This document shows positions 1 to 15,413 of a stretch of DNA of 31,454 nt, one piece after another. Position 1 is the first letter of the stretch; each line of letters begins with the position of its first letter. This stretch comes from a virus, in IMG/VR virus record IMGVR_UViG_3300034946_000431, positions 1 through 31,454 of that record; one strand, written 5' to 3'. The notes under the pieces were generated by a model. The model was not told the DNA's origin, ran no database searches, and was given only the letters and a program-made list of their open reading frames with translations. Position numbers and translations under genes: made by a program.

Positions 1-3000
1 TCTAAGTTCTACACTTAACGGTATCCACTCACTTTCACAATTTTGATATCCTCCGTCAAATGGACCAGTAATATCATACTGATTACATTCTAACGGTTCA
101 CAAAGTTCAACTGCAATAATAACTCCATCTTCTACATTAAACACATAAGCATTAAAACCATTTTGGTAAGTGCTGTTTGTACTATACCAACCATCTTGAA
201 CAAGAGCACAATCAACTCCTGCACCATCATAAAGAATAGCACCCACATTTAAACCGTATGATTCTTCATACATAAAGTCTCTAAATGCAGGAACTCTAAA
301 TACTGAAGGATCTCCAAACACCAATGCTGCTGCACTACAAGCATCTATAGAACTACCTGTACTTACTACTGGAGGATCTAAATTTACTTGGTAACCTTCT
401 AATAAAGAATTAACTGATAAACCAGTAGGTCTTGTACATGCTGTTGTGGTTGGAGGGATAACTATTGTTGCAGTTCCTGCTAATGCACAATCTGTTACAG
501 TAAATATACCATTTCCTATTTGACAATCTGCTTGTTGGGTTGTACTTGTAGTTGTAGTAAACAATGGTGGATTTGTTGATGTACTTGTTGTAGTAATAGG
601 TATAACAGGTCCTACTTCTCCAGCTATAACATCAAAATTAAGATCACAACAATCATTCTTTCCTGAATAGAAAAAAGCATTATCTGCTATATAAAAACTA
701 GGAAGGTATGAATGAAAAGATATCCAACTTTGTATGTTAAAGTCATAAGAAATTGTCCATGATTTATTACAGAAATACTTTTCGTTATTTAATGATATAG
801 GTCTTTTAATACGAGTAATTTTATTATAAAAGAAGTCACCTTCTTCATCATATGCTATAGTATCTAATAAAGGAGTAAAGTCAAGTTTAGTAATGATTAT
901 TCTATCAAACTTACTATCATATACACCATGTAAACCAATACCACTAAAGGCATTGTCTGTTTCTACATTAGGGAAAAATCTAAGAATGTGAAAAGGAAGC
1001 TCATCTTTCATAAACTTATTTACTCCAGAATTAAACGAAGTTAAGTCTATAGCTTTACCAGCTATTAGAAATATTTGACCTCTTTTAGCATCTGCTGTAA
1101 TTTGACCTTGTGGTATCTTTAATAAAAACTTATTTTGAGATCCTACATAACCAAGGTCTGTCTCAGCATAATCAATTGGTGGAGTTCCACTAAATAATCT
1201 AGGATTTCCAACATAAGCTGCTTGAGGATTACTTGTATCAATTGTCAATAGATTATTATATAGTAATGATTTATTTTCAAAACGAGCAAGTATTGCTTTG
1301 TTCTGAATACCATCTAATGATATAAGATTTCCAAAGTTTTGAGGAAAGTCAAAAAAGGAAAGTGCTCTATATACTAACCAGTTATTTACTCTATTGTCAG
1401 CATTTGTTGCAGCTGGATCAGAATATATAGTTCTAAATGGGTAATTAGTAAAGCAGTCATCATCTTGCCAATCAACAGGAAGGTGTGAAAATGAATTTTC
1501 TTTATTCTGCTTAGAGAATGTTACATTATAATAATATGTATTATCCTGAGCAATAGGTACATTAGCTTCTTGCACCCAATCATCAGGTATTCCTGAACTT
1601 ACATGTGGCCAGAAATCTCCTTCTTTATTATTAAATGCTTGACGTAAATCTGTATTATATGTGCTTTCACAATAAAAGCTAGGAACACCGTATGCAAAGT
1701 TATACATATAACCATCATAAAAAGTTCTAGCTGAACCTGATTCTACTGTAGATGGATCAGTAGAACAATCTAAGTTGTGGGCTTTATATGATATTATATT
1801 TGACATTACAATATTACCATTATCTTGAAGAACATAAGGTTCTAGAATAGATCTTGCAGAATGCCAATATTTTGGATATCCTACATTACCTATTTCATCG
1901 TAAAATATATCACTATCATCAGGAGCATTTACTCTATTGTCAATAAAGAAAGGAAGTTTAGTTTTATATGCAAACTTTGAGATGAACACATCTCCACCAA
2001 AAACAATACCTGTATCATCTCCAGGAGTAATTGTAAATAAACTAGGAATTAGTTTTTGATACCCTGTATCAATAGTTTGATAAGAATATATTTGTCCCCA
2101 TTGATTAGGAACTATATTCTTCATTGATGCATAATAAGAAAGTACAGAAATGTCTTTTTCTTTAGAAGGAGTAGCACATGTACTACTACTACATTCACCA
2201 TCAATAGCAGGACCAGAAGTAATTGTAAATCTAGAATTATCTTTAATCTCAGGTCCCTCACCATTTGGATTTATAGTAGGTGTATCTATTGGAAGAGGTA
2301 GTGGAAGAACTGTTCCATCTTTATCTTCTGTTTTAATAAATACAGAACTTTCTCTATTCCAATTATTAATATCTAATTCATCTTTTCCTAATGATTGTAC
2401 TCCAGGAATTAAGTATCTAGAAATATCGATTTCTCTTTGCTTAATACCTACATTTTGAGGAGTTCCAATTAACGATGTACTATTTTCAATATCAAAAGAG
2501 TAATCATAACTAGCTCTAGAGTTAAATGACATTCCATAATTTCTTCTAGTAATACCATTTATATAAATTGTAAGATATGATTGGTACGCTGTAAACATTG
2601 CAGCTCCATTAAAGTTACCTGATAGAGCTCCAATGTCTTCAGAGCTTTCTAAGGCATCTTGTTGAGCTTCTTTAGATAAAAGTTTATACTTAGCATTATC
2701 TTTAACTTCTACAAAATGAGCTTTACCAGCTCCAAACATTACGCTTTCTAACTTAAGTACACCACCTAAGAAAGGTTGTCCAAAAGATGTTTCAGGAGAA
2801 TTAAATATTTGTCTATTAGCTTCTTCTGACTTTATAGACCTTTGAGGTGTTTCTGTTTGACAGTCTAATGATGATCTTCTACTTACTGGTTCTATATTAC
2901 CATTAACATTTCCCATAACAACTTGTCCTGGAGCCATTACAACTGCTGGTTGAATATCTGTTTTTCTTTTATTTAGTCCACAATTGTTATACTCTACATC

Positions 3001-6000
3001 TCTTGTACTCTGTTGAACATTACCATTAGAATCAGTTATTAGAGCAACTCTTAACCATCTTTTATCAGGACCACCATTAAAATTAAAATTATCAGCACTT
3101 AACCACGCACATTGACTTACTGGTTGTTCATTATTTCTTGTAAAAGGATCAGTCCAACAAACCCTATAACCTGATAAACAGTTATTATTCTTTTCTACCA
3201 TGGTGTAATCACCAGGACCAATTAAACATACACCTCTTAATGTTGTAGGTTTTTCAGTTGAGCAAAATTCAATAGTTACACCTAATTCAATACACTTCTC
3301 TGCATATTTATTTGTGTCACGATCACGATATTGAATTATTGCATATCCTAATTCTGAATCTATCTCTTCACAAGTAACTAACCAAGCTACAGCCTCATCA
3401 TAATAAGCATTGTTATCTTCTAAAATAAAAGGGTCTTCTGCTAAATCATTATATGGATAATTTGGGTAATAGTAATCTTGCTCTTCTCTAGTATACTTAT
3501 TTACGTTCCTAAGCATACCTTTAGCAACAATAGATCTATTAGTACCTCTGTCACCTCTTACTATCTTAAATCCAACTATATCAGCTTTTTGTTCTGTTGT
3601 TAAATTTGAAGATTGTATTAATGATGCTATCTGCTTATTATCTACTCTTATTCCAATTGGAAAAATACCATCATCACGAAGTTCAGGTTGAATTAAAGTA
3701 GTTCTTGGATCTGTATTTGGATTACTTGTATCAACTGGACCTGTAGTTATGGAAGCTGAATAATTTATATCTACTCCAAACTCGTCTCTAAAAGTTGCTT
3801 TCACAATCCAAGTAGCTGCAACTTGAGAAATAAATAATAATTCATCAGAAAGAATTTCTAATACATAATCACCATCTGGAAACGAGGATGCAAATCCAGT
3901 TTGACTTCCATACATATATCTTTGTCCAGAACCAGTGGGTAATGAAGCTAGTACATTTCCATTAGTTGCATTTATTACTCTTGCAGAGTATGAATCTCCA
4001 GAAGGTACTGAAATTGTTAAACGAACTCTTGGATCAAGTAGTTCAATATCAGCACTCCCAAAAGCTATCGTTACTACAGATCCACTATAAGTAGTAGCAC
4101 CTATAAGCTCTAAAGGATCCTGAGATTCATTACTTTCATTATAACTTACTTCCAAAAACTCCCCATCAACAAAAGGAATCTCAGGTTCTTCACCACTTCC
4201 ATTTGGGTCTGTAGGATCTTCTTTTATTATTGGACCATTCTCAATAATTGGACTTACTAATACATCTGGAAACTTGTGGTGTCTAATTTTTTGCCCTGCT
4301 AAATCTCCCCATACATCATCATTACATGGGTATTCTTCTAAAGATTCCCAATAAGATAATTCACCATATTGGTAAGGACCTTTATAGTTACGTGCGTTAG
4401 GATTATAATCTTCAGAGAATCCTATTACAGATCCTGTATTGTATATTTTCCATTGAGGTGAATATCCAACTTCAACATCAATATATTGTTCAACTCCTAC
4501 AATGTCTATTGTTATAGAGTTTCCTGATATATATACTGGTTGAGATAAAGAATTAACTTGAATACAATCATTTTCACCCCTTAAAGTAAGTATTTGTGTT
4601 TCACCTTCAAGATTTGTATATGAAAACTTAGATTTAGGAAATAGAAAGCTACCGCTACCACAAACATTATAAGTATAGTATGGAACAGAAGTAATTTCTG
4701 AATACTCTGGTTCACCTATAAAATCATTATTTGTATCAGGTATTGGTATATAATCATTTTCATTACTTACCCTACCAGGAATATGAAAACCATCTGTTTG
4801 TTTACCGTTCTTTAATAAAAAAACAAGCTCAAATGCATACACCTCATCACGCATGTATCCACGCAAGTCTGTAGCATTTAACTCATCTGAATAATCTTCA
4901 CCTGGTGGAATTCTATATGTCTCCCATTGAAAATCTATATTGCTTGCAATTGATTGATAGTTAGTTCTATCTATAGAAGTAAGATTACTCCAAACAATAA
5001 CATCTTGAACAGCAGTAACATCATTAGCTATATCGTAATAAGGAAACTTTTCAAGTATATCTAATGTAGAAAGTAGTATAGGAGTTTGATTAGCCCCTGT
5101 ATATGTTATTTCTTTAGCAAACTCCTCAATATTATATGTTCCAACAAGTTCTACTGAAGGAACATTATTTATTGTTTTTATTACAGCTATATTAAAAAAC
5201 TGAAATTGACCAGTTAGATCAAGATTAGACACACCTACAACAATAGACTTTCCTACATTATAATTAAAGTTAACTGACACTATATCCTCATCAGCAATGG
5301 GAAGTGGGTTAGTTACAGAGTAATATGAAGTAAGTTCGTTTCCTGATGCATCTGCATATTGTACTGCAAATTGATATGTACCAGCAACTAAGTTACCAGA
5401 ACTATCTATTACATTTACAATGTCTAATTGAGGAAGAGAAAAGTTAGGTTGAATTTTAAGTTGGTTACAATCTACCTCACTACTATATACAGGGTCACAA
5501 CTAGGTGTACCTCCTACAAGTTTGTAAGGAACGTCTTCAATATCTAAATAACGTCTGTCGTTAAGTCCATCTGTCCAATATATTTCTGTAGTACAGTTAG
5601 TTATTCTATGTACAACTTTAGGAATCGGATTTTTTATATTAAAGTTTAGACAAGGAGCATTTACTAACGTTTGATAATTACAATCGTTATTATCCATAAA
5701 TCCAATCTCACTTTGTTCTGAAATAGAATTAACTAGGAAAAATATATGTTTTCTTTTTTCCTGAATATAATGTTGACCAATAAGTTTGTATCCTGATGGA
5801 AATCTAAGACACAACTCATTACCTAACTCATTTTGATAACTTACAGAATTATCATCAAAGTTCTCTACAGCAGCATTTAAAGCATACGTAACTTTACCTT
5901 GTCCAACTTGACTAACAGAACTATCCAAATTTAATCCTGCTTGAGCAGAACCTGGATTCATTCTAATATTACCTAGCTTTCTTTTGTCTTTTTTTTCTTC

Positions 6001-6006
6001 AGCCAT
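1..6006 (-). CDS. Giant muzzle/tail stabilisation-like protein (partial, C-terminus outside window)
   Basis: An uninterrupted reading frame of 2002 codons runs leftward from the ATG at 6004-6006 and off the left edge, so the C-terminus is missing. The N-terminus (LNLDSSVSQVGQGKVTYALN, about residues 25-45) and the following beta-rich region resemble the tail stabilisation or muzzle protein of crAss-like phages, functionally like P22 gp10 or T7 gp12, which forms the distal end of the short tail. About residues 1802-1823 form a Thr/Ser-rich linker (ITTTSTSTNPP then FTTTTSTT), followed by a Cys-containing segment with a second short Thr run, so the last 200 visible residues look like an appended module. 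The gene lies 5 bases after the stop of a tail-tubular-like gene, last in the visible tail operon. The family call is recognition; the beta-propeller fold is inferred from relatives. Confidence 0.75.
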   Translation of the reverse strand, partial: MAEEKKDKRKLGNIRMNPGSAQAGLNLDSSVSQVGQGKVTYALNAAVENFDDNSVSYQNELGNELCLRFPSGYKLIGQHYIQEKRKHIFFLVNSISEQSEIGFMDNNDCNYQTLVNAPCLNFNIKNPIPKVVHRITNCTTEIYWTDGLNDRRYLDIEDVPYKLVGGTPSCDPVYSSEVDCNQLKIQPNFSLPQLDIVNVIDSSGNLVAGTYQFAVQYADASGNELTSYYSVTNPLPIADEDIVSVNFNYNVGKSIVVGVSNLDLTGQFQFFNIAVIKTINNVPSVELVGTYNIEEFAKEITYTGANQTPILLSTLDILEKFPYYDIANDVTAVQDVIVWSNLTSIDRTNYQSIASNIDFQWETYRIPPGEDYSDELNATDLRGYMRDEVYAFELVFLLKNGKQTDGFHIPGRVSNENDYIPIPDTNNDFIGEPEYSEITSVPYYTYNVCGSGSFLFPKSKFSYTNLEGETQILTLRGENDCIQVNSLSQPVYISGNSITIDIVGVEQYIDVEVGYSPQWKIYNTGSVIGFSEDYNPNARNYKGPYQYGELSYWESLEEYPCNDDVWGDLAGQKIRHHKFPDVLVSPIIENGPIIKEDPTDPNGSGEEPEIPFVDGEFLEVSYNESNESQDPLELIGATTYSGSVVTIAFGSADIELLDPRVRLTISVPSGDSYSARVINATNGNVLASLPTGSGQRYMYGSQTGFASSFPDGDYVLEILSDELLFISQVAATWIVKATFRDEFGVDINYSASITTGPVDTSNPNTDPRTTLIQPELRDDGIFPIGIRVDNKQIASLIQSSNLTTEQKADIVGFKIVRGDRGTNRSIVAKGMLRNVNKYTREEQDYYYPNYPYNDLAEDPFILEDNNAYYDEAVAWLVTCEEIDSELGYAIIQYRDRDTNKYAEKCIELGVTIEFCSTEKPTTLRGVCLIGPGDYTMVEKNNNCLSGYRVCWTDPFTRNNEQPVSQCAWLSADNFNFNGGPDKRWLRVALITDSNGNVQQSTRDVEYNNCGLNKRKTDIQPAVVMAPGQVVMGNVNGNIEPVSRRSSLDCQTETPQRSIKSEEANRQIFNSPETSFGQPFLGGVLKLESVMFGAGKAHFVEVKDNAKYKLLSKEAQQDALESSEDIGALSGNFNGAAMFTAYQSYLTIYINGITRRNYGMSFNSRASYDYSFDIENSTSLIGTPQNVGIKQREIDISRYLIPGVQSLGKDELDINNWNRESSVFIKTEDKDGTVLPLPLPIDTPTINPNGEGPEIKDNSRFTITSGPAIDGECSSSTCATPSKEKDISVLSYYASMKNIVPNQWGQIYSYQTIDTGYQKLIPSLFTITPGDDTGIVFGGDVFISKFAYKTKLPFFIDNRVNAPDDSDIFYDEIGNVGYPKYWHSARSILEPYVLQDNGNIVMSNIISYKAHNLDCSTDPSTVESGSARTFYDGYMYNFAYGVPSFYCESTYNTDLRQAFNNKEGDFWPHVSSGIPDDWVQEANVPIAQDNTYYYNVTFSKQNKENSFSHLPVDWQDDDCFTNYPFRTIYSDPAATNADNRVNNWLVYRALSFFDFPQNFGNLISLDGIQNKAILARFENKSLLYNNLLTIDTSNPQAAYVGNPRLFSGTPPIDYAETDLGYVGSQNKFLLKIPQGQITADAKRGQIFLIAGKAIDLTSFNSGVNKFMKDELPFHILRFFPNVETDNAFSGIGLHGVYDSKFDRIIITKLDFTPLLDTIAYDEEGDFFYNKITRIKRPISLNNEKYFCNKSWTISYDFNIQSWISFHSYLPSFYIADNAFFYSGKNDCCDLNFDVIAGEVGPVIPITTTSTSTNPPLFTTTTSTTQQADCQIGNGIFTVTDCALAGTATIVIPPTTTACTRPTGLSVNSLLEGYQVNLDPPVVSTGSSIDACSAAALVFGDPSVFRVPAFRDFMYEESYGLNVGAILYDGAGVDCALVQDGWYSTNSTYQNGFNAYVFNVEDGVIIAVELCEPLECNQYDITGPFDGGYQNCESEWIPLSVELR

Positions 6007-6011
6007 AGTTC

Positions 6012-6980
6012 TTAGTTATTGCGTCTTCTACCGTATCTATTAGCTCGGTTAGGAAGCTCATACTTATTGAACCTATTTAGATCTTTTTTAATTCTTCTTT
6101 GCTTTTCCCAAGATGTTTGTTTCTTCGATTCAGTGAATGCCATAATCCACGCTTCATCACTAAGTTGTTTATAGTAACCTAACTTTGACTGAAGCTGATT
6201 AAACGTTTCATCATTAGTTTGATTAGTTAATGTCTCAAATACTTTATACTTAATAAAAGCTTCAACATATTCTGCAATCCTATAATTATCTGGTATCATT
6301 TGATTACCTGTATCATCATAGTCTGTAGAATAAAATAATAAATGAATTACAGCATGTCTAAAATTAGTTACAAACTTGTTGTCTCTAATATCAAAACTAT
6401 CAATACTTGAAGAGTGAGGAGTAAATTGACCAACAGGTGGTGCAAAGTTGTTCCAATCATTTCTATAATTTACATCACACTGTTGTCTTGCAGATATATT
6501 TCCTGGTTTAAGCAAGTAATCATACCTATAAGATCTTGCAATCTCATTGTTTGTTTTATATACAGCTTGAACAAGTTCAGGCATACATGTACCATCACAA
6601 GATGGGTGTTGACATGCAGAGTTATCACAAGGTGTACCACCAATAGTTAAAGGTGATATTTGAATGGTTGTTGCATTTGCAGCTTGAGAATAGAAAGATG
6701 TTGCAGACGGATAAGGATTACCTGGAACTTCAGCACACATCCAAGCTTCTCTAACAGCATGAAAGTTATCTGGTAACCTTGCTTGAAAATCTTCTACAAA
6801 TAAAACTTGCTCATCTATTTTGTAACTTGTTTTACCTAGCTTATTTAAGCATTTGTTCAAATATGTTGGAAACAATAAATCATCTACTGCTCCTGTATCA
6901 AAGTAACTCTTAAGTTCTTCTTTTACTGTAGCATAGATGGGTTCTGGTGATACAAAATTATATTTATGATAATATGACAT
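6012..6980 (-). CDS. Tail tubular/ring-like virion protein
   Basis: The 322-residue product begins with a helical segment (YATVKEELKSYFDTGAVDD, about residues 16-35) and then LNKCLNKLGKTSYKIDEQVL. This pattern resembles the connector/tail-tubular fold (P22 gp4, T7 gp11) found as ring proteins in crAss-like phages. It has a Cys/His-containing insertion around residues 114-133 (PCDNSACQHPSCDGTC) that could bind a metal. The C-terminus is strongly basic and Arg-rich (NRANRYGRRRNN). The gene starts 2 bases after the stop of the HU/IHF-like gene and ends 5 bases before the muzzle gene, fitting a role between portal and muzzle. The specific ring number cannot be decided from sequence alone. Confidence 0.6.
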   Translation of the reverse strand: MSYYHKYNFVSPEPIYATVKEELKSYFDTGAVDDLLFPTYLNKCLNKLGKTSYKIDEQVLFVEDFQARLPDNFHAVREAWMCAEVPGNPYPSATSFYSQAANATTIQISPLTIGGTPCDNSACQHPSCDGTCMPELVQAVYKTNNEIARSYRYDYLLKPGNISARQQCDVNYRNDWNNFAPPVGQFTPHSSSIDSFDIRDNKFVTNFRHAVIHLLFYSTDYDDTGNQMIPDNYRIAEYVEAFIKYKVFETLTNQTNDETFNQLQSKLGYYKQLSDEAWIMAFTESKKQTSWEKQRRIKKDLNRFNKYELPNRANRYGRRRNN

Positions 6981-9558: not shown

Positions 9559-9583
9559 CTCCCAAGGGACTAGCCCTCAGGAG
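9559..9583 (-). terminator. Rho-independent terminator (second of a pair)
   Basis: On the minus strand a 10-base-pair stem (CTCCTGAGGG with CCCTTGGGAG, two G-U pairs) closes a 5-base loop and is followed directly by TTTTTATTT. It follows the terminator at 9584-9615 immediately, so leftward transcripts meet two hairpins in a row. Confidence 0.8.
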
Positions 9584-9624: not shown

Positions 9625-10098
9625 TTAGTCAGTACAAATGCTAGGTGTAGTAAGATAAGAAAAAGGTGGTGGGTTTGTATCTAATGCACAAAATGATATT
9701 TGTCCAGGTGGTGTAAATTCATCTAATGCCCAATTAGGCGTTTGTAAAATACCATCACAATCAGTATAATTCCATGCACCTGCTGGAAAAACAGTACTAG
9801 TTGCTCCTAGAAGAGCTGTATCTACAGTCCACAAACCACAAATTGCAGCTTCAGTAGTACTTGTAGTGGTTGTAGTAGCAGGTAAGGGTATATCAATTGA
9901 CACATCGCACAACACTGTTGTAGATACAGCTCTTATAATAGTAGTACCGTTTGGTATATTATCACTTGGAAACCCATTTATTAAGTCTTGTCTAGAAACA
10001 TTAGTTTCAAATGCTGATATATAGTTATCTACATTTGAAAACAATGAGAAGTTATCAGCATCTACTCCTATAGTTAATATTTGTATTATTCCTGTCAT
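9625..10098 (-). CDS. Poly-Thr-linked fibre-like protein, paralogous module copy 3
   Basis: The 157-residue product has three parts. Residues 1-72 form the repeated module also present in the next two upstream genes; its marker segment is FSLFSNVDNYISAFETNV, with a Cys near residue 64 before a final I-x-I strand. Residues about 73-84 are a Thr-rich linker (PATTTTTSTTEA). Residues 85-157 are a short Cys-, Trp- and Pro-containing domain unlike the C-terminus of the copy at 10100-11176. The start is 1 base after the stop of the upstream gene, indicating coupled translation, and the double terminator follows. The position next to the collar fibre suggests a virion surface or fibre-tip role; function is not known to me. 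Confidence 0.7.
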   Translation of the reverse strand: MTGIIQILTIGVDADNFSLFSNVDNYISAFETNVSRQDLINGFPSDNIPNGTTIIRAVSTTVLCDVSIDIPLPATTTTTSTTEAAICGLWTVDTALLGATSTVFPAGAWNYTDCDGILQTPNWALDEFTPPGQISFCALDTNPPPFSYLTTPSICTD

Positions 10099-10099
10099 A

Positions 10100-11176
10100 C
10101 TATAAAGGGTTACATGTGCTATTTAAGTTACAATCACTTACCTCTTGAACTTGATTAGTTACACCGTCAAGTCTAAATATTCTAAATGGTTCTGTTGTTT
10201 CAGTATCTGTAGAAACATTTGCATAAGCGTACCATCCTGCAACTAAAAGAGTTCCAGTTATTACATCTCCCACTGCTAAGTTTATAAATGTATTACTACT
10301 AAGTGTAGTTGATGAAGTTCCTATAGTAATCTTGTTGTTGCAAAAGTTTGAACAACTTGCCTGAACACCTGTAGTTGAAATAAATAGTCCAGGAGTAACA
10401 GCAGCTGATACAGAGTTAGAAAAGTAAAATTCTTGTACACCGCCTTGCATAATATAAGGTGTGGTCATTGGAGTTATTAACTCATCTGTGCAATTTGGAT
10501 CTATATCATTCGGCTGATACCAAACACCATTTAGTCCCATTTTGTTTGACACCTCAAAAGTTCCTGTCCTAAGACTAGTTAGCGTTGCATTCACAATTGA
10601 TCCAACATTTAAAATTATTTGACCAGCATTAAAAAGATCAAACTGACTTATTGTACTATCTACAGTTGGAACACCATCAACAGTGATTGAAAGATTAAGT
10701 GTACCAAGTTCTGTAGGAGTGTTAGTTTGAAGTGACCACTTAAGTGTAGCTGTTGGACTTGTAGTAGTTGTAGTTGTTGTAGGTGCTACAGTAGTTGTGG
10801 TTGTTGTAGTTGTACTACTAGTACTAGTTGTTGTGGTTGTGGTTGGAGGTATAGTAGTTGTTGTAGTGGTTGTACTACTACTTGTGCTAGTTGTAGTAGT
10901 TGAAGTACTAGAGCTAGTTGTTGTAGTGGTTGTTGGTTGACATATGTTCTTTAAGGTTATAAAAGTTTTACATACTTTATTTGTTGCACTTACTGCAACT
11001 CTAACAAACTCTGTTCCAACAGGAGGTGTTGTTATATATCCAGGAGTTACAAACTGAGAAGCATTAATATTTGTTTCAAAAGGTGTAGTATAACCATCTA
11101 CATCTGAAAATAAATCAAATGGACCTGCTTGAGACCCAGCTGGTATAACTAATGATATTTGTATTTCTGGTTGCAT
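10100..11176 (-). CDS. Poly-Thr-linked fibre-like protein, paralogous module copy 2
   Basis: The 358-residue product begins with the same ~75-residue module as its neighbours (marker FDLFSDVDGYTTPFETNI, Cys near residue 69, strand FITL). Residues 81-143 are a very long Thr/Ser linker interrupted only by short IPP and VAP turns. Residues 144-358 are a beta-rich domain with several Cys residues (a CSNFC pair, and a C-terminal end in TCNPL). The linker is built of imperfect ACT/ACA/ACC codon repeats at about 10748-10935, likely prone to slippage and recombination. The modular layout is typical of adhesive or fibre proteins, so host-surface binding is a reasonable inference. Neighbouring genes are 1 and 11 bases away. 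Confidence 0.7.
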   Translation of the reverse strand: MQPEIQISLVIPAGSQAGPFDLFSDVDGYTTPFETNINASQFVTPGYITTPPVGTEFVRVAVSATNKVCKTFITLKNICQPTTTTTTSSSTSTTTTSTSSSTTTTTTTIPPTTTTTTSTSSTTTTTTTTVAPTTTTTTTSPTATLKWSLQTNTPTELGTLNLSITVDGVPTVDSTISQFDLFNAGQIILNVGSIVNATLTSLRTGTFEVSNKMGLNGVWYQPNDIDPNCTDELITPMTTPYIMQGGVQEFYFSNSVSAAVTPGLFISTTGVQASCSNFCNNKITIGTSSTTLSSNTFINLAVGDVITGTLLVAGWYAYANVSTDTETTEPFRIFRLDGVTNQVQEVSDCNLNSTCNPL

Positions 11177-11187
11177 ATGTTTTTGTT

Positions 11188-11403
11188 TTATGCTAGTTGT
11201 ATGTCTATAAAATTAACGCAGTCTCCAAGAGCTTGAACTCTTACCTCCGTAGCATTATCAGGAACAATAATCTGAGTTCCTTGTAATAAAAAAGCTACAG
11301 GTATATCAGAACTTATAGGAGTTAAAAAATTATCACTATCTGAATAAATATCAAATAAAGAAGTATCTGCTCCTGCTGTTGTTAATGTTATTTCTACTGT
11401 CAT
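11188..11403 (-). CDS. Stand-alone copy of the fibre module (copy 1)
   Basis: This 71-residue protein consists of only the module that forms the N-terminal domains of the two downstream genes. Matching positions include FDIYSDSDNFLTP against FDLFSDVDGYTTP and FSLFSNVDNYISA, then a VPDNATEVRV strand, then Cys62 and a final FIDIQL strand. It has no linker or second domain. Its start ATG overlaps the stop of the upstream membrane-protein gene as ATGA, a coupling arrangement. It may be a subunit that assembles with the longer copies or a cap on their attachment site; this is inference. Confidence 0.7.
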   Translation of the reverse strand: MTVEITLTTAGADTSLFDIYSDSDNFLTPISSDIPVAFLLQGTQIIVPDNATEVRVQALGDCVNFIDIQLA

Positions 11404-11606
11404 TTTTTTAGATTCTTTATTTTGTTTTTACAGAAGAAAGATTTAAAATATTTTATCCAGCTTCCACCGTAAATTTTATTTACAACATTAATCTTTAACA
11501 TTGATCCGTAATATATAATTGTTGTTAGAGCTACTACTGTAGCTAGTAAATCATTTCCTGCCATTACCATAAGTGATATTAATGCTAATTCTATTTTATA
11601 ATACAT
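11400..11606 (-). CDS. Small membrane protein, candidate holin component
   Basis: The 68-residue product has a long hydrophobic N-terminal segment (about residues 5-36, with one break at AGND) and a strongly basic C-terminal tail (KNKIKNLKK end). One or two membrane helices with a basic cytoplasmic tail is a holin-like layout, but many small phage membrane proteins look alike. It lies 6 bases after the stop of another small membrane protein, so they may work as a pair. No lysin gene is visible next to it. Holin is a guess from size and topology. Confidence 0.45.
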   Translation of the reverse strand: MYYKIELALISLMVMAGNDLLATVVALTTIIYYGSMLKINVVNKIYGGSWIKYFKSFFCKNKIKNLKK

Positions 11607-11612
11607 AATTTA

Positions 11613-11855
11613 TTATTTCTTTTTATTACCTAGATTTCCTAGTGTAGTCTGAACAATTCTTGCAAATGCAATAATCTCACCCCATAAAAAAATAATTCCT
11701 AATCCAGTAAATACTGTATTGTTTAATCCCCAATGCATATTATCATCTGTTATTAATAACGCTGATAATGCTGGAGCATATAAACCAATTAGTAAACAGA
11801 TGTGACCTAAAATCACAGCTAACCATTTTTTATATTTTTCTACAAATGATGACAT
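11613..11855 (-). CDS. Two-helix small membrane protein, candidate holin
   Basis: I take the start at 11853-11855, giving 80 residues (MSSFVEKYKKW...). The frame is open further up to 11927, but that extension would overlap a Cys-rich micro-gene that has clear coding features. The protein has a basic N-terminus, a first hydrophobic segment (about residues 12-34), a short polar loop, a second hydrophobic segment (about residues 44-66) and a Lys-rich C-terminus. Size and two-helix topology fit a class II-type holin. It follows the Cys-rich gene by a few bases and precedes a second small membrane protein. Confidence 0.5.
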   Translation of the reverse strand: MSSFVEKYKKWLAVILGHICLLIGLYAPALSALLITDDNMHWGLNNTVFTGLGIIFLWGEIIAFARIVQTTLGNLGNKKK

Positions 11856-11862
11856 TTTATTA

Positions 11863-12000
11863 TTATTTTGTACATGAACAATTACTTGGTGGTGTTTCAT
11901 CTTTAATATATATAGTTTGACACCCACAAGGCCAATTTAAAACAACTTCCTCGCATTTAGGATTTACAGGTAAAAATGCGTTCTTGTTACACCCTATCAT
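11863..12000 (-). CDS. Cys-rich 45-residue micro-protein
   Basis: A short frame from the ATG at 11998-12000 to a TAA at 11863-11865 encodes a 45-residue protein with six Cys: one near the N-terminus (MIGCNK), one in PKCEE, a CGC near residues 25-27 and two in the tail (NCSCTK). Its ATG overlaps the stop of the tail-collar fibre gene as ATGA, so it is positioned for coupled translation. The Cys spacing suggests a small metal-binding or disulphide-bonded protein. Below the usual length cut-off, it would be missed by most gene callers. I recognise no family. The alternative, a 24-residue N-terminal extension of the next gene in another frame, overlaps it and is less convincing. Confidence 0.6.
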   Translation of the reverse strand: MIGCNKNAFLPVNPKCEEVVLNWPCGCQTIYIKDETPPSNCSCTK

Positions 12001-13118: not shown

Positions 13119-13496
13119 TTAAGAGGTAGCAACACATGTTATTTCTCCACTTGTAATTTCACAACTTATTGTTGTGGTGCTAGTAGTAGTTGGTATACAT
13201 ACTTGATTTACTTTAGGGCATCTTAATTCACACCCTGCAGTTAATCTAATAACTTTACCAGCAATATCTTCTACAGAAAAATGTTCTGCGTAATCTGGAT
13301 TATTTTGTTTGTTTATGAGAATATCTCTGTATGCTAATAATTGAGTAAGTTCATAACTAGGTACACATGCGTTTAACATGAATACAACATTGTTGTACAT
13401 ATTATAACTCAACTCTGCAAGTTTGCAATCTATCCTTTTAAGTAGATCTGCTATGTCGCCACAATTCTCACAATTTGTAAACTTACTTTCTAACAT
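13119..13496 (-). CDS. Virion-associated protein with short Thr linker
   Basis: I place the start at 13494-13496, giving 125 residues (MLESKFTNCENCGDI...). This ATG lies one base after the TAG stop of the upstream Cys-rich micro-gene. The frame is open 15 residues further upstream, to an ATG at 13541, but that start would overlap the micro-gene. The protein has a Cys pair (CENC), a helical middle section (LLKRIDCKLAELSYNMYNN) and a Cys pair in CELRC. Near the C-terminus comes a short IPTTTSTTT linker followed by a CEITSGEITC tail. This linker and Cys arrangement recurs in other virion genes here. Function unknown. Confidence 0.65.
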   Translation of the reverse strand: MLESKFTNCENCGDIADLLKRIDCKLAELSYNMYNNVVFMLNACVPSYELTQLLAYRDILINKQNNPDYAEHFSVEDIAGKVIRLTAGCELRCPKVNQVCIPTTTSTTTISCEITSGEITCVATS

Positions 13497-13497
13497 A

Positions 13498-13596
13498 CTA
13501 TTTTTTATTTTTGGAACCGTTACAGTAAGTGCATAAGCCATTTGTTAATTGACATCCACACCCTACTTGTGTCCCACAATTTGCACACTGAGCCAT
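13498..13596 (-). CDS. 32-residue zinc-ribbon-like micro-protein
   Basis: The frame starts at the ATG 13594-13596 and ends at TAG 13498-13500, encoding MAQCANCGTQ then VGCGCQLTNG then LCTYCNGSKN KK. Six Cys are arranged CxxC, CxC, CxxC, the pattern of a compact zinc-binding protein. The start lies one base after the TAA of the 192-residue gene (TAATATG) and its TAG is followed one base later by an ATG (TAGTATG), so it forms the middle link in a tightly coupled chain. The regular Cys spacing and spacing to both neighbours make it a real gene despite its size. Role in fibre assembly is inference. Confidence 0.7.
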   Translation of the reverse strand: MAQCANCGTQVGCGCQLTNGLCTYCNGSKNKK

Positions 13597-14261: not shown

Positions 14262-15413
14262 TTAAGGAGCAGCAGTTGTAGTTGTAGTTGTAGTTGGGCA
14301 AACACTACCATATTGAGTAATGTTAAACGCAGCTGCAAGATCAGCAATTATAGCTGTAGATAGAGCTCCTTGAGGGATTGCAATAATTACAGTTGAATCT
14401 TGCATGATATAATCTCCCCACTGATAAGCAGCTTTATCAAATTCATTAAATCTAACTGTAACTGTATCATAAACAATACCTGGTGTTACATGAGATTCAA
14501 AGTTTTGATTAAATCCACCCATTCTTAGTAAAGACTTTAAGTAACCTGCTTGGTAACTGTAATAGTTCTTTTCTAATTGAGCTATTTCTTCTGAAGTACC
14601 TCTTGGATAAGAAGACTGTTGAACATCTGTAGCAACTGCTACGATATCACAATTGTCTGCTACGATAAAATCTGCAGTTGTTGCAGGTCCTGCATAAACA
14701 AATGCATGAAAACGCAATTTGTCAAATTCAAATGGATCAGCTGCTACATCACATGGTTGACCATATTTTGTTAAAGCCTTACCTGTAATTACTAATTTTG
14801 CAGCTGCATCATTACCTGATCTTGCAAATGTATAGAAAGAATTAAAGCTAATGTTATCAGGATTGTTACCTGGAGCTTGTTGTTCTAATTTTGCAATAAA
14901 TTGATCAATTAATGCTGGTACATCAACATCTAGACATGGATCACCTCCACAGTCACAACATGGTGCATTTACAGTTACTGAACGTGTGAATCCGTTAAAG
15001 TAAAGAGTATCAATGTAAGATGAGTGACCTCGTAACGTTAAAGTTACTACTTCACCACATTGTACATTCCATCCATCTACTTCAGTAATTTGGTTAAGTG
15101 CTGTTGCACAACCTTTTACAGAATAAAGTTCACTAACGTTATTTACGTTTCTGTTAGTAGGAGTTGCTGTTGGGCCTTGGGCTACCAAAGAAATCTTATC
15201 AGATCTTTTAGATCCTTGAAGATAAGTATTTGATCTACCTTGTGCAACGTAGAAATATGAACCAGCTCCTAATGCTGCAGTAGCGACTGGTGCATAGTCT
15301 TGGTTAAAAAATCCAACTTGACCAGCTGTCAAGTCTTGTGTTGATCCAGAGCTAGGGAGAGCTGTCTGCCCTACTGGGACTACAAATAATGTAGTCAATG
15401 AAAAATCCGCCAT
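14262..15413 (-). CDS. Virion structural protein, candidate auxiliary capsid protein
   Basis: The 383-residue product is largely beta-rich, with a Cys cluster CCDCGGDPC near residues 151-159 and a long helical region around residues 270-300 (EIAQLEKNYYSYQAGYLKSL). It ends in CPTTTTTTTAAP, a poly-Thr tail that is not followed by another domain, unlike the linkers in neighbouring genes. Its position within the capsid-encoding block and its size fit an abundant virion protein such as an auxiliary capsid or head-surface protein of crAss-like phages, but I cannot assign it exactly. A strong terminator follows its stop. Confidence 0.6.
   Translation of the reverse strand: MADFSLTTLFVVPVGQTALPSSGSTQDLTAGQVGFFNQDYAPVATAALGAGSYFYVAQGRSNTYLQGSKRSDKISLVAQGPTATPTNRNVNNVSELYSVKGCATALNQITEVDGWNVQCGEVVTLTLRGHSSYIDTLYFNGFTRSVTVNAPCCDCGGDPCLDVDVPALIDQFIAKLEQQAPGNNPDNISFNSFYTFARSGNDAAAKLVITGKALTKYGQPCDVAADPFEFDKLRFHAFVYAGPATTADFIVADNCDIVAVATDVQQSSYPRGTSEEIAQLEKNYYSYQAGYLKSLLRMGGFNQNFESHVTPGIVYDTVTVRFNEFDKAAYQWGDYIMQDSTVIIAIPQGALSTAIIADLAAAFNITQYGSVCPTTTTTTTAAP

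Follow-up and report, generated by a model that had tools for sequence, protein, structure and literature searches.

A module at the N-terminus of Thr-linked head proteins and of the C-terminal piece of a split muzzle in crAss-like phages

The muzzle of the crassvirus PhicrAss001 (gp44, PDB 7qok; PF25731 and PF25729) is a hexameric protein situated at the tail tip. In the solved virion of this phage the fibres are poorly resolved, and the tail barrel and hubs are stabilized by disulfides (PMC10172136). Tailspikes and tail fibres, for example the receptor-binding proteins of Klebsiella phages (PMC8262889), combine a short conserved N-terminal part with a variable C-terminal part that binds the receptor, and the same layout is seen in the proteins described here. 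In contrast to those anchors, the conserved part is a 70-residue domain predicted to be Ig/FN3-like (the module), with no detected relation to them and followed by a poly-Thr linker. With the Ig-like and FN3 domains of other phage virions it would have a general beta-sandwich fold in common, but it lacks a sequence match to any Ig/FN3 family, is strictly N-terminal and occurs singly. A muzzle is also present: the N-terminal piece (N-piece) encoded in the DNA analyzed here and the C-terminal piece (C-piece) of its relatives together make up the crassvirus protein. In gp44 and in the muzzles of the outgroups the chain is continuous and lacks the module; here it is cut, and one of the resulting ends carries a Thr-linked head, the other a module. 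A search of the open-access literature found no description of either the module or a split muzzle, and new here are the crAss-like source, the division of the muzzle into two genes in nearly all relatives, and the module copy on the C-piece.

The window examined is the stretch of 31,454 bases in IMG/VR record IMGVR_UViG_3300034946_000431, and since its minus strand encodes a terminase, portal, major head protein, ring proteins and the start of a muzzle, it belongs to a crAss-like phage. The ring 1 protein gene (6012–6980) matches PF24228 (1.5e-7) and is followed by the muzzle gene, so that the crassvirus order is retained. Three module genes, ORF1 to ORF3, lie between a fibre-like gene and the ring-protein genes, and the muzzle is not adjacent to them. 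A terminator-like hairpin (9559–9583, minus strand) follows ORF3 at the end of the module gene set; two such sites were found against 1.0 expected by chance. Just upstream of ORF1 are two small ORFs for predicted membrane proteins (11400–11606 and 11613–11927) and a 45-residue, Cys-rich ORF (11863–12000), all of them possibly lysis genes. Two scans through bacterial genomes turned up no relative and therefore no link to a host; the nearest cultured relatives either infected Flavobacterium or were isolated on Leptolyngbya.

The preliminary description of this DNA had placed three copies of one module of about 70 residues at the start of ORF1 (11188–11403), ORF2 (10100–11176) and ORF3 (9625–10098), and these coordinates, all on the minus strand, proved exact. 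The modules themselves occupy the whole of ORF1 (71 aa), aa 1–80 of ORF2 (10937–11176) and aa 1–72 of ORF3 (9883–10098), and are scored at 2e-28, 6e-21 and 4e-25, respectively, by a single profile that was built with these three sequences included. The marker pattern reported for them, F-x-[LI]-[FY]-S-x-x-D-x-[YF], has exactly three matches in the six-frame translation, one per module; residue-shuffled ORFs gave a mean of 0.004 matches, and three matches in 0 of 500 trials. The mutual similarity it implied was borne out by pairwise local scores 7.5–12.5 SD above 5000 shuffles, none of which scored as high, and the ORF2 module used as a query against the record recovered the other two (1.3e-7 and 5.9e-6). 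ORF1 is, as described, a module without linker or head, and its orthologues (66–99% identical) are headless too. Paralogous modules within one genome are about 28–43% identical, and orthologues in the nearest relatives far more so, which indicates that the modules are old paralogues and not recent copies.

Linker lengths came out close to those first given. The Thr-rich linker of ORF2 (aa 81–144, 67% Thr; 10745–10936, minus strand) has 64 residues, compared with 63 earlier, and that of ORF3 (aa 73–86; 9841–9882, minus strand) about 10–14, depending on whether it is ended at aa 82 or 86, compared with 12. Thr tracts are also found near the C-termini of two more proteins of the structural region, encoded at 14262–15413 (ending in SVCPTTTTTTTAAP) and 13119–13541 (IPTTTSTTTISCEITSGEITCVATS), and Thr linkers therefore appear to be widespread in this virion. 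The C-terminal heads of ORF2 and ORF3, described earlier as unrelated, indeed fall into separate similarity clusters. The first part of the ORF2 head (aa ~145–259; 10400–10744, minus strand) is modelled as a beta-sandwich resembling Gram-positive pilin and CnaB-like domains (VIA Z up to 9.2), with a pLDDT of about 90 across residues 1–118 of the head, and this predicted likeness is one of fold only. An isopeptide bond was considered and is not claimed, the residue after the first Leu being Lys only in close relatives and Asp, Gly or Ser elsewhere. The second part (aa ~260–358; 10103–10399, minus strand) contains cysteines, has homologues in L010–L012, and was modelled with a pLDDT below 50. 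The ORF3 head (9628–9840, minus strand) is a small Cys-rich domain with a weak match (6.5e-4) to a head family of muzzle N-piece tails, using a profile built without the window and without its nearest homologue, L001.

When the three modules were searched against IMG/VR, 269 relatives were returned, of which the best 80 were kept, and an iterated profile gathered 205 module copies from related virus contigs, with 131 distinct sequences among them. Every one of these is N-terminal, with one copy per ORF, and stands either alone or before a Thr-rich linker and head. The genes form arrays of one to several members, and in close relatives (L001–L023) the order ORF1-ORF2-ORF3 is retained, with ORF1 orthologues 71–99%, ORF2 orthologues 68–88% and ORF3 orthologues 74–96% identical. 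AlphaFold2, run on 61 sequences for the ORF1 module, predicted a small, Ig/FN3-like beta-sandwich with a mean pLDDT of 94; the ORF2 and ORF3 modules are joined to that of ORF1 by the one common profile. Ig/FN3 and usher domains come closest to the model (Z up to 6.5), a likeness that reflects a common arrangement only. No Pfam family, those for Ig and FN3 included, was matched by ORF1–3 up to E = 1, and a profile search of PDB sequences with the module gave chance matches only. The preliminary description gave no name for the module, and neither the family collections (Pfam, PHROGs and NCBIfam) nor the PDB yielded a specific match. In a phage collection, tblastn with the modules gave no match, nor did the consensus at E up to 10, so that no isolate there carries the module. 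In a library of viral models the fold was found in five uncharacterized proteins of Virus NIOZ-UU157 (TM 0.86–0.92), deposited without function. Their lengths (417, 939, 77, 77 and 287 aa) fit headed, headless and C-piece forms, and the length and low identity of the 287-aa protein suggest that it is a C-piece.

That C-terminal heads have been exchanged on a duplicated module, as proposed at the outset, is now strongly supported, since related modules bear quite different heads. ORF3-type modules 74–77% identical to that of the window (96% for L001) are followed by a Cys-rich head of 83–87 residues in the window and L001, by a 26-residue tail ending in LLLQTGDPIEQQNTNYIKTQ in L015 and L019, by a region of about 400 residues with DUF5122-type propeller sequence and a LLLQTGDPIEQQNTNYIKTQ-type tail last in L021 and L022, and by a 791-residue DUF5122 and DUF285 region in L023. 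ORF2-type modules likewise bear differing heads. The C-terminal tail LLLQTGDPIEQQNTNYIKTQ is conserved at the end of many ORF3 orthologues (L015, L019, L021, L022 and L025); it is retained despite the insertion of a head of about 390 residues before it, and is absent from the ORF3 of the window. The module protein of L066 (6001–10050) reaches 1350 residues; it contains DUF5122 repeats, matches LRRs weakly, and is rich in Thr over a stretch of about 190 residues.

The muzzle gene at the edge of the window (1–6006, minus strand; PF25731 crAss_MUZ, 1.7e-44) is cut by the window start, and a profile built from muzzles matches crAss001 gp44 in PDB 7qok (1.4e-7). In a related locus (L073) the module profile found, close after the muzzle gene, a further gene of 288 residues consisting of a module, about 20 residues, and a domain that forms the muzzle C-terminus in other phages. 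This C-piece, which begins with a diverged module copy, is homologous to the C-terminus of single-chain muzzles in contig G008 (2.8e-111), Leptolyngbya phage Lbo-JY46 (1.6e-28) and Flavobacterium phage FpV4 (1.9e-16), in all of which the domain is fused to the body without a module. A Pfam search with the C-piece gave no direct match. PHROG 15100 covers both pieces, the N-piece aligning with its start and the C-piece with its last 190 positions (1588–1774/1783), and module profiles did not find the module inside unsplit muzzles. The split site in the window is FFYSGKNDCC (646–675, minus strand), after which the N-piece runs on into a Thr-rich linker (538–597, minus strand) leading to a head of its own. 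As the window stops inside the N-piece, and the nearest relative (G001) has an adjoining C-piece gene, a module-bearing C-piece is expected just past the window. The cut lies opposite gp44 residues ~1234–1238 (FYAF-KDGKM-WEQF), a segment that alone scores weakly; it probably falls at a hairpin turn, and nearly all relatives are cut at this turn too.

Among long contigs, 13 of 16 have a C-piece with the module at its start. A scan with the C-piece placed the module on it in all of the 80 best loci, a figure biased by the presence of the module in the query itself; when the query was the muzzle end of G008, which is unsplit, 76 of 80 loci were split and carried the module, two were unsplit (one being the query) and two were truncated or unclear. 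The C-piece module is present in each of the 22 split-muzzle contigs of 102–119 kb; 20 of these encode 1–3 free-standing modules in addition, while in G018 and G020 the muzzle-borne copy is the only one. About a third of loci L120–L199 have a module gene placed between the genes for the N-piece and the C-piece, and no module was found in L201, an outgroup record with an unsplit muzzle. A tree of the muzzle body, with the outgroups (L201 and Lbo-JY46) unsplit and G008 placed inside the split clade, suggests an old split and a single subsequent re-fusion. G008 was accordingly rejected as an ancestral unsplit form and is probably a secondary re-fusion; the junction in its muzzle (L200, 6194–11170) lacks the module, the head and both staple cysteines, and the re-fusion appears clean. 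An assembly artefact was rejected as the origin of the split, which recurs in well over 100 contigs, and a frameshift is unlikely, as C-pieces have their own Met start and a whole gene fills the gap in many loci.

Just before the cut, the N-piece carries the pattern FFYSG-xxx-CC and the C-piece, after its module, a cysteine in the context C-[ILMV]-W-x-H. At 72 loci the leading Cys of CC occurs together with the C-piece Cys, at 36 neither occurs, and there are no mixed cases (108/108 concordant, with some loci sharing a contig). Mapped on the tree, the two have changed together four times independently, always in one direction and without exception, a number too few to reach p = 0.05 by a sign test. 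The simple reading of this covariation is a disulfide that would staple the two chains together. The window N-piece has the CC, its first Cys being the predicted staple residue, and the C-piece of G001 has the matching Cys. The second Cys of FFYSGxNxCC was matched in every split muzzle, even where the first had been lost, with a pattern that required it and so would have missed absences; it may pair with a conserved Cys of the C-piece module.

The heads connect the two kinds of protein. In total, 31 head sequences of module proteins match muzzle N-piece tails, nearly all in other contigs, including L180 against L164 (85% over 149 aa), L158 against L141 (65% over 163 aa), L061 against L211 (78% over 63 aa) and G008 against L107 (72% over 64 aa). 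With a head profile seeded on the tails of muzzles, a module protein scores 3.8e-17. Since heads are common to both and a module copy starts the muzzle C-piece, attachment of the module to the virion is supported indirectly, and the free-standing module proteins may likewise be virion-attached. The reading we favour, and consider reasonably probable, is that the module is an N-terminal, Ig/FN3-like mount for exchangeable heads tethered by Thr linkers on the tail, most likely at or near the muzzle, in an aquatic crAss-like lineage. The two muzzle pieces would co-fold and be stapled by the disulfide, with the module on the outside of the hexameric muzzle; as the crAss001 muzzle is a hexamer at the tail tip, six copies of a muzzle-borne module would be on display. 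The heads, on long tethers rich in Thr, would be held at the tail tip, either fixed directly to the muzzle chain or via the module, and free-standing modules would dock at the muzzle or nearby, the headless ORF1 perhaps filling or spacing docking positions. Judging from their variability, exchange and position, the heads would touch the host surface, where they may bind a receptor and help adsorption. More tentatively, the C-piece module may be a docking socket, with headed and headless free paralogues assembling around the hexameric tail tip into a mixed ring; the disulfide-stapled cut, made at a surface turn in what is the most conserved protein of the tail tip, would then be the mounting point for heads that pass from the muzzle chain to separate proteins and back. 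Contig G008 has one free-standing module protein together with its unsplit, module-free muzzle, so docking cannot strictly need the muzzle-borne module.

The same contig favours a rival reading, which we think unlikely: the module would be a general anchoring domain at the N-terminus, meant for a different site on the virion (for instance a hexon pocket of the capsid or a ring of the tail hub), and the muzzle C-piece would have borrowed it separately. The position of the module genes away from the muzzle in the window agrees with this, as does the attachment of crAss001 head fibres through short N-terminal segments (PMC10172136), whereas the sharing of heads specifically with muzzle N-piece tails, the module genes between muzzle pieces and the failure to find the module in the unsplit outgroup record argue for the muzzle. 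An adhesive Ig-like decoration, with linkers and heads as extra adhesive domains, would suit the fold and the conservation of headless copies, but is improbable for a domain that is strictly N-terminal, single in each protein, and conserved while the sequence downstream turns over, the reverse of adhesive repeats. That module proteins act in the infected cell and not as virion parts, the module serving as a folding or solubility domain, has no result in its favour and is very improbable given the fusion of the same domain to a conserved structural protein and the recurrence of the heads on the muzzle tail.

Under the favoured reading, a tail-mounted module bearing exchangeable heads, the muzzle would consist of two chains joined by a disulfide across the cut, and module proteins would be found on the tail. 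For host recognition by crAss-like phages, the present analysis provides a domain family and an exact site at which aquatic relatives appear to vary what is displayed at the tail tip, suggesting a shared way of mounting changeable probes there.
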